Of a stretch of 64,000 nucleotides of DNA, positions 4,536 to 7,537 are shown piece after piece. This DNA comes from Nymphaea colorata. Its lineage: Eukaryota > Streptophyta > Magnoliopsida > Nymphaeales > Nymphaeaceae. The stretch covers positions 3,913,501-3,977,500 of the forward strand of contig NC_045142.1 of NCBI RefSeq assembly GCF_008831285.2. The letters run 5' to 3'. The translations under genes and the position numbers were made by a program. Under the pieces are notes generated by a model. It saw only the letters and a program-made list of their open reading frames with translations, did not search any database and had not been told where the DNA came from. Within the stretch, counting starts at the first letter, position 1; the number at the start of each line of letters is the position of its first letter.

Positions 4536-4879
4536 AAGACTGAAACTGCCGAAGGGTGAAGGGCGAAGGCCAAAGGGGCGAGGCGAACCGGCGAGCGAAG
4601 GGCAACGCAGCACTTGCAGGCTCGCAGCGGCGCAAGCAACAAGGGTCAAGCTGGTAGCCAGTAGGGTTCTTCTTCTTCTTCTTGAATCATGAATGAATCG
4701 TCAATCGCTTGGTCTTGAATGGTGTTGGCCCTGTTCCTGTTGGGTTTTCATTTGTTTTTCCCTTTGAATCGCCGGGAAATTAGTATCGAGAACAAAGGAA
4801 CTACAAAATGGTTTCTTCATATAGTAGTACAACGACAAACTTAAAAATGATTAATTGGCCAAAAATTATTAGCGCTTAC

Positions 4880-5765
4880 CTCCTTCATTGGCAGTTGAGT
4901 TCTCCTTTCGTCTGGAGTGCAGGGAGCGAAGAATGCAAAGCTCGACACTGAAGCTATTGGGGTATAGCACTCTTCATCACTAGACACAGACCTCCTAAAC
5001 GAAAGGCCAGTGGATGGCGAACAACCCGTTGCATCAACCAAAAAGGAAGAAAATGACGTTTTGCAAGTAAACGAAGGGGAGAAGTCCCGCCGAACATCAC
5101 TACAAACCACGTTGCTGGAGTTCACGACGAAATCACAGTTTATGGGAATCGATTGCTCCGGCAAAGAGTGTTTGAGTAAGCCAAACTGGCCTTCATCTCC
5201 CAAGAGCTTCTCTTCATTTTTAAACCAGCAATGGTCTGAAAATACAGAATCAAGAGGATGACTGATTGTCCGAAAGAGATGCAACATAATTGCTGCTGCA
5301 ATCTACGATCATGCCCAACAACATAGTCAAAACGAGATTCAAGTTTGTACCATTTTCACAAAAGAGACATAAACCATACTCAACGTCATCAACTCGACAA
5401 AAGCAATTTAAGTAGGTTGAGATAAACATGAACTAAAGTGTCAAAGTAGACAATTCAAAGTCATATAGAAGGAAAAATAGGAAACACATACCTAAGACCT
5501 TTGCTGCATTAAGTCTATGCTTCGGATCTCTGCAAAGCATTCTTCTGATCAAATCCTTAGCAGAAGCAGATACATGGTCCCAAGGTTCCCCTAGAAGACA
5601 TATGTCTGCTGCCCTTACTTCATCAAAAATCTGTGCCTTGGTATCCCCATAGAAAGGAGGTTGCCCACAGAAGAATGTAAAGAATCACGGCGGCGCTCCA
5701 TACATCTGGTGCTTCATTATAGGCCCCAGCAAGGAATTCTGGAGCAATATAATATGAACTGCCAA
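4880..5765 (-). pseudogene. PEPKR2/CDPK-like protein kinase fragment, left palindrome arm
   Basis: Two exon relics are read leftward. The kinase exon (5765 to 5492) encodes the C-lobe after the activation segment: SYYIAPE, then [11 protein letters not shown] and VILYILL, later EPWDHVSASAKDLIRRML and DPKHRL. A 2-bp loss inside the LLSGQPPF block shifts the frame. The donor after VL is intact (GTATGT). The C-terminal exon (about 5313 to 4880) is open for most of its length and is Ser-rich, with FTCKTSFSSFLVDA and YTPIASVSSFAFFAP, the kind of tail I associate with PEPKR2. Its 5' acceptor AG is lost. The ATP-binding lobe is absent. It is a non-functional fragment, and the exact kinase subfamily is inferred. 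Confidence 0.82.
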
Positions 5766-6549
5766 CTATACCATACAATATAAATATTTAGCCTTTCACA
5801 CTTGTCTGGTTCCTTCCCCTCCTCTTGAAATTTGTTTTTTTACCTAACCTTTTGAATCCTCTCTCTTTTCTTTTATTTTATTGCTTCTACTTTTTTTTTG
5901 TTAATAAATATATTTTAATAAGCTAGTAACAATTTATTGTTAGTCCTTTTTGAGGATGGTATTGACACAGGCACTCCTTTCTCCCCCCTCCCTTTATTAG
6001 CCTTATATTGCTTTTACTTTCAATGTCTTATCAATGGCTTTGATTAGAGTACGAATTCATTGTTCATTTCATGTGGAATTGGCATTGACCCAATCGCCCT
6101 TCAGCAAATACAAATCAAATCTAAAACCAACAATGAGAGTGTGAGAGTTATTGGCAAGTGCAGGGGTCGATTCTTAACTCTCACACTCTCATTGTTGGTT
6201 TTAGATTTGATTTGTATTTGCTGAAAGGCGATTGGGACAATGCCAATTCCACATGAAACGAACAATGAATTCCTGCCCCTTTTATCAAAGCCATTGATAA
6301 GACATTGAAAGTGAAAGCGATAAAAGGCTAATAAAGAGAGGGGGGAGGGGAGAAAGGAGAGCCTGTGTCAATACCATCCTCAAAACGGACTAGACAATAA
6401 ATTGTTACCAGCTTATTAAAATATATTTATTAACAAAAAAAAAAGTAGAAGCAACAAAATAAAAGAAAAGGGAGAGGATTCAAAAGGTTAGGTAAATGGG
6501 AAGGAACCAGACAAGTGTAAAAGGCTAAAAATTATATTGTATGGTATAG

Positions 6550-7437
6550 TTGGCAGCCCATATTATATTGCTCCAGAAGTCCTTGCTTGGGGCTATAACG
6601 AAGAAGCAGATGTACAGAGAGCCGGCGTGATTCTTTACATTCTTCTCAGTGGGCAACCTCCTTTCTGTGGGTTACCAGGGCACAGGTTTTTGATGAAGTA
6701 AGGGCAGCAGACATATGGTTTCCGGCGGAACCTTGGGACCATGTATCTGCTTCTGCTAAAGATTTGATCAGAAGAGTGGTTTGCAGAGATCAGAGGCACA
6801 GACTTACTGCAGCACAGGTCTTAGGTATGTGTTTCCTATTTTTTCTTCTGTATGACTTTGAATTGTCTACTTTGGCACTTTAGTTCATGTTTATCTTAAC
6901 CTACTTAAATTGTTTTTGTTGAGTTGATGACGTTGATTATGGTTTATGTCTCTTTTGTGAAAATGGTATAGACTTGAATATCGTTTTAACTATGTTTTTC
7001 AGCATGATCCTAGATTGCAGCAGCAATTATTTTGCTTCTCTTTCGGACAATCTTTAAGTCATCCTCATGATTCTGTATTTTCAGACCATTGCTGGTTTAA
7101 AAAGAGAAGTTCTTGGGAGATGAAGGCCAGTTTGGCCCACTCTAAGACTCTTTGCCTGAGCAATCGATTCCCATGAACTGTGCTTTCATCCTGAACTCCA
7201 GCAACGTGGTTTGTTGTGATGTTCAGCGGGACCTCTCCCCTACGTTTACTTGCTAAACGTCATTTTCTTCCTTTCTGGCTGATGCAATGCGTAATTCGCC
7301 ATCTACTGGCCTTTCGTTTAGGAGCTCTGCGTCAAGTGATGAGGAGTGCTCTACCCCAATAGCTTCAGTGCCGAGCTTTGCATTCTTCGCTCCCGGCACT
7401 CCAGATGAACAGGAGAACTCAACTGCCAATCAAGGAG
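6550..7437 (+). pseudogene. PEPKR2/CDPK-like protein kinase fragment, right palindrome arm
   Basis: This is the mirror copy of the left-arm fragment, read rightward. The kinase exon (6550-6824) shows [20 protein letters not shown] and QPPFCG, then a frame break from a 2-bp loss, then EPWDHVSASAKDLIRR. It ends at an intact donor, as in the left arm. Compared with the left arm, the DVWSA tryptophan codon has changed (DVQRA). The C-terminal exon starts after an intact TTTTTCAG acceptor at 7003 and reaches a GTAAGC donor after 7437, but it is broken by stops and shifts. The two arms carry different disabling changes as well as a shared one at the start of the C-terminal exon, so the gene piece was probably already damaged when it was duplicated. 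Confidence 0.82.
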
Positions 7438-7537
7438 GTAAGCGCTAATAATTTTTGGCCAATTAATCCTTTTTAAGTTTGTTGTCCAACTACTATACGA
7501 AGAAACCATTTTGTAGTTCCTTTGTTCTGAATACTAT

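Follow-up and report, generated by a model that had tools for sequence, protein, structure and literature searches.

A palindrome of broken kinase gene fragments in Nymphaea colorata: probable inverted duplication of a pseudogene and its potential for hairpin RNA

The inverted-repeat structure at positions 4781-7536 of the window, i.e. of the whole 64,000-nucleotide stretch of Nymphaea colorata DNA analysed here, is a real palindrome. Its arms carry pieces of a protein kinase gene, and we consider it likely that the palindrome arose by inverted duplication of an already dead pseudogene fragment, that the two copies have decayed neutrally since, and that the ability of the locus to form a hairpin is incidental. 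That death came first, inverted copying next and decay last appears to be readable from the sequence. The locus is a clean example of the origin and decay of such a structure.

Repeat search and pairwise alignment delimit two arms of about 1.36 kb around a 24-bp spacer, just as a preliminary description of this DNA had proposed:

4781..6150, gene on the minus strand: left arm, 1370 nt, aligned to 6175-7536; read as the inverted copy
6151..6174, no strand: spacer (loop), 24 nt, from repeat search and alignment
6175..7536, gene on the plus strand: right arm, 1362 nt; read as the copy in the original gene context
6100..6150 (left-arm coordinates), no strand: longest perfect stretch between the arms, 51 nt, adjoining the spacer

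The arms share 92% identity and are separated by 104 substitutions over 1345 aligned positions (56 transitions and 48 transversions, K2P distance 0.082) and by 12 indels. Perfect runs of at least 21 nt between the arms number 21 and cover 593 nt in total, the longest of them being 51 nt. Such similarity far exceeds what chance would produce; at the DNA level, the central 220 nt by themselves fold about 27 s.d. better than 200 shuffles. Palindromes are a known type of assembly artefact, produced by a chimeric read or by joining two paralogous contigs head to head, and such an origin deserves consideration here. We judge it very improbable, since arms derived from an inverted chimeric read should be almost identical, whereas these differ by numerous substitutions and indels and carry private frame-breaking lesions; this argument covers the chimeric read but not a false join of diverged paralogues.

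From the spacer outward, each arm consists of a proximal part that we regard as non-coding, then an exon for the kinase C-lobe and finally an exon for a Ser-rich tail:

6175..6536, plus strand: proximal part of the right arm, regarded as non-coding (either an intron or unrelated sequence); exon border approximate
6537..6824, plus strand: kinase C-lobe exon of the right arm, uncertain at its 5' edge and followed by donor GT 6825-6826; 1-bp loss near 6672
5492..5772, minus strand: kinase C-lobe exon of the left arm, with approximate edges; 2 bp lost from LLSGQPPF near 5668
7003..7437, plus strand: tail exon of the right arm, between acceptor AG 7001-7002 and donor GT 7438-7439; +4 and -4 bp indels
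4880..5313, minus strand: tail exon of the left arm, which has lost its acceptor; the TGA/TAG common to both arms is followed by 132 open codons

The same kinase C-lobe exon had been said to lie in both arms and to point outward. This is indeed what we find, on the minus strand in the left arm and on the plus strand in the right one, the right copy being matched both by Pfam and by PDB sequences. Pfam family PF00069 (Pkinase) hits the right copy in two pieces, at 6552-6671 (E 3.2e-7, 30.5 bits) and at 6599-6880 (E 3.7e-4, 20.4 bits), with both scores below the whole-protein cut-off of 31.7 bits, as those of fragments may be. The match places the C-lobe exon among protein kinases (Pkinase, CDPK/CaMK-like). 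In the search of PDB sequences, the best match of the right copy was MNK1/2, followed by CDPK3.

What is left in the arms is nevertheless not a functional protein kinase gene, as motif patterns for the ATP-binding lobe, HRD and DFG gave no match and both arms contain frameshifts and stops. When six frames of the 64-kb window were scanned for four kinase motifs (HRD, DFG, glycine loop and APE), only APE was matched, once in each arm and once, in a chance-like manner, at 11975; HRD, DFG and the glycine loop had no match in any of these frames. Among the upstream open stretches of the plus strand, the 20 of 31 submitted to Pfam yielded no kinase. The left tail frame of 153 aa is likewise without a Pfam match, hence no EF hands are seen. 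The introns kept in the fragment point to a DNA-level copy and not a retrocopy. The name PEPKR2, given in the preliminary description, is used here as a tentative assignment. PEPKR kinases have been described as carrying N- and C-terminal extensions on the kinase domain, unlike other CDPK-SnRK kinases (PMC6265509), while another report describes the PEPRK and PPCK classes in the opposite manner (PMC5301275).

Comparison of the lesions in the two arms bears on the relative timing of gene death and duplication. A lesion common to both arms had been postulated where the tail exon begins, and in-frame TGA and TAG codons are present there in either arm. In the right tail exon these stops occupy 7005-7007 (TGA) and 7011-7013 (TAG); joined in phase 1, the exon begins with GCA TGA TCC TAG on the right and with GCA TGA TCG TAG on the left. 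An H-x-W stretch is usual near the end of kinase domains, and the second shared stop, TAG, presumably sits at the position of its Trp.

All remaining lesions are private to one arm. The left arm has lost 2 bp in LLSGQPPF, the acceptor AG (GGG at the site where the right arm reads CAG, in keeping with the earlier claim of a lost left acceptor) and 1 bp near 4906; up to this last loss, 132 codons of the left tail remain open within an ORF at 4844-5302. The right arm has lost 1 bp just after the PPF block, where the alignment sets right GGGT-TACC against left GGGGATACC, and has in its tail the +4 and -4 bp changes and two stops in the ancestral frame. Both arms had previously been credited with 2-bp losses at different places in LLSGQPPF; this holds for the left arm, whereas the loss in the right arm amounts to 1 bp and lies just behind the block. 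Gain and loss of bases were judged here by reading frame alone, with no outgroup, and the changes are not assignable to an arm.

With TGA and TAG present in both arms and every other lesion confined to one of them, the gene had probably died by the time of the copying, and the proposal that the piece was broken first and duplicated as an inverted repeat later gains support. This order hinges on the parent's choice of splice acceptor. A second possible acceptor lies 18 nt further downstream in both arms (TTGCAG, followed by CAGCAATT; AG 7019-7020); splicing there would keep the phase and skip the shared stops. As the true splice site it is disfavoured, because its use would remove the H-x-W stretch usual in kinases. 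A lesion thus seems the more likely, though not certain, interpretation of TGA and TAG.

The question of which arm is the original can be addressed by means of sequence beyond the palindrome, where splice signals and phase point to one further exon:

7583..7620, plus strand: probable last exon of the right copy, beyond the end of the palindrome and preceded by acceptor AG 7581-7582

This segment joins the tail exon in phase 1, giving a split codon and eleven codons followed by a TAG stop. The right end of the palindrome, 7536, falls inside the intron that follows the tail-exon donor, so that the right-arm gene appears to run past the palindrome into 7583-7620. The left arm stops in the corresponding intron and other sequence follows. 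With a likely terminal exon beyond the right arm alone, it is the right arm that seems to have kept the surroundings of the gene and the left arm that would be its inverted copy, as far as splice signals and phase can tell.

The same border bears on the possibility that the palindrome is a transposable element, either a foldback or a captured-gene element, with kinase fragments in long terminal inverted repeats. Long inverted arms with a short middle would fit such an element, and so would the transposon remains nearby, namely LINE pieces at 125-1828 and a pair of direct repeats at 4203-4442 and 10092-10341. However, the outer edge on the right apparently falls within an intron, with the next exon close behind it, and would therefore not be the end of an element; moreover, inspection of the flanks by eye showed no clear target-site duplication. 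A transposon origin is in our opinion hardly probable at all.

As to the repeats themselves, the LINE remains lie on the minus strand and comprise an endonuclease (Exo_endo_phos, 920-1828, E 1.4e-8 in Pfam) and a weak reverse-transcriptase start at 125-727 (E 0.0052, below the cut-off). The direct repeats are 85% identical, flank the palindrome and are of a dispersed kind. We doubt that they are LTRs around the palindrome, as their aligned ends do not show TG...CA. Elsewhere in the window, an inverted pair of 148 nt with 96.6% identity (31741-31888 and 34234-34380, 2.3 kb apart) may mark the limits of a young element; it is interleaved with a second inverted pair at 33737-34010 and 36638-36909 (87% identity). 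To the right of the palindrome, at 8231-8336, there is a long (TA)n and then (GA)n microsatellite. A minus-strand open frame at 43053-43592 encodes two C2H2 zinc fingers (zf-C2H2_6, E 1.7e-23) and LDLNLPP near its end, and it looks like a single-exon gene of the ZAT-like type. Another minus-strand frame, 58061-59161 (367 aa), matches DDE_Tnp_4 (E 2.5e-31); it presumably encodes a transposase of the PIF/Harbinger type or is a gene that descends from such a transposase. No tRNA was found in the window.

For the inverted duplication that we favour, the starting piece would have been part of a CDPK-like plant kinase gene, truncated on its 5' side, still bearing introns and dead through its tail-exon stops, which then became duplicated in inverted orientation adjacent to itself. 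Fold-back or template-switch events, which can set inverted copies side by side around a short spacer, would be the most likely route, with the 24-nt spacer as the loop. The original would be the right arm together with its terminal exon, the copy would be the left arm, and both would have decayed neutrally afterwards. If transcription ever ran across them, a long, interrupted hairpin could form and be cut by plant Dicer-like enzymes, as an incidental property of the locus.

Distribution of the differences between the arms agrees with this course of events. At codon positions 1/2/3 they number 26/21/15 overall, 11/11/7 in the kinase exon (271 columns) and 15/10/8 in the tail exon (392 columns). 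As there is no excess at third positions, no coding constraint after duplication is visible; for the left 153-aa frame in particular, such constraint was rejected on the tail counts. The 116 events over 1357 columns were also compared with 5000 random placements. Their dispersion (0.69 against a random mean of 0.90), the longest perfect run (51 against 58.7) and the number of bases in runs of at least 21 (593 against 555.7) were all not unusual among these placements. A bias towards changes tolerated by G:U pairing, considered as a mark of a selected hairpin, was rejected, since transitions keeping G:U number 26 in the plus-strand transcript and 30 in the minus-strand transcript. Neither the spread of events nor run lengths nor G:U-tolerant transitions thus give a sign of selection for arm pairing. 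With differences spread as at random and third positions not in excess, both arms have likely undergone neutral decay since duplication.

Two observations lean away from plain neutral decay. The proximal part (left-arm interval 5773-6150) is the least diverged part of the arms, with 18 differences in 358 positions against 64 in 702 for the exons (5.0% vs 9.1%; Fisher P 0.020, uncorrected), and all non-coding sequence compared with the exons gives P 0.052. Lower divergence near the apex could hint at conversion or constraint. Secondly, transitions are in excess in CG context (14/58, compared with 42/481 at other C/G sites, P 0.001), which is compatible with CG methylation, although CG transversions are frequent as well (9). 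Transitions at CHG and CHH sites (10/78 and 32/403) do not differ significantly (P 0.19), i.e. no footprint of non-CG methylation emerges from this comparison of low power. For substitution rates assumed to lie between 1.3e-8 and 2.5e-9 per site per year, the divergence of the arms would correspond to an age of about 3-16 million years.

The preliminary description also suggested that the palindrome might give a long hairpin RNA. As a physical possibility, this is supported. Predicted folding of the whole palindrome as RNA yields -2123 kcal/mol for the plus strand and -2132 kcal/mol for the minus strand, with 1267 of 1272 and 1260 of 1272 predicted pairs, respectively, connecting arm to arm; folded alone, the arms reach -294 and -364 kcal/mol. 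According to these predictions, a transcript crossing the palindrome would be largely double-stranded. Given 92% identity and 12 indels, its stem would often be interrupted, on average at about every 12th position (116/1357). Mismatched hairpin transgenes are reported to escape self-methylation and to give more persistent RNAi (PMC9263138), so that 8% mismatch would not by itself speak against function.

The palindrome might be an active hairpin-RNA locus, whose transcript spans the arms and is cut by Dicer-like enzymes into siRNAs that act on an intact parent kinase gene through silencing or methylation. Predicted arm-to-arm pairing, the 21 long perfect stretches, raised CG-site transitions and precedents reported from rice (PMC2708354), Arabidopsis (PMC13213937) and poplar (PMC9636151) speak for it; the lack of visible selection for pairing and of G:U bias, the non-significant CHG excess and the result of an Rfam search over the window, which gave no match at the gathering threshold, speak against it. 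On balance we regard such activity as unlikely. We hold it to be quite unlikely that, in addition to transcription and regulation of an intact parent by siRNAs, the less diverged apex has been kept by conversion or selection; if this were true, a pseudogene would have turned into a silencer of its own parent. The locus cautions against taking the foldability of a palindrome, by itself, as a sign of silencing. Across the arms, where the longest run and run content are as random, no duplex of miRNA size is conspicuous, but one of the MIRNA type could hide among the perfect runs.

Among the papers listed for PEPKR2 pseudogenes or inverted repeats, a single one on pine (PMC7602945), and for broader topics, none was recognised as dealing with this locus, which is a weak negative. 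Allen et al. reportedly put forward, in 2004, an origin of plant MIRNA genes by inverted duplication. The palindrome shares the start of that model, an inverted duplication of a gene segment, but here no preserved short duplex stands out. Human fold-back inverted duplications involve a spacer and short inverted homology and resemble our case in having inverted copies around a single-copy spacer (PMC3907307). Spacers in the human cases are mostly a few kb long and the duplications large, compared with 24 nt and 1.36 kb here, and the fold-back mechanism may be carried over from them by analogy only.

The locus belongs to a known kind, that of the inverted gene-copy loci of rice, Arabidopsis and poplar. 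Two inverted pseudogene pairs with mapped small RNAs are described from rice, each consisting of two inverted copies of one pseudogene and predicted to give a duplex transcript (PMC2708354). Their stems measure 154-185 nt, with 83% and 96% identity, and one loop has 1,283 nt, whereas the stem here is about 1.36 kb and the loop 24 nt. Long inverted repeats of rice, in one case with a short spacer and in one case with arms up to about 7.4 kb, are described as probable small-RNA precursors with a QTL link to small-RNA levels (PMC7649420). PAI4-PAI1 and VIM4-VIM2 of Arabidopsis Cvi are, like our locus, palindromic gene copies capable of forming hairpin RNA, with small RNAs and effects on homologous genes reported (PMC13213937); in our case, both copies are broken fragments that diverge by 8%. 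The inverted partial duplicates of poplar ARR17, for which 24-nt siRNAs and target methylation are reported, are similarly inverted gene fragments under relaxed constraint (PMC9636151). If the Nymphaea palindrome is active, it would provide a further example in which a parent gene is regulated by its own dead copy via hairpin siRNAs.
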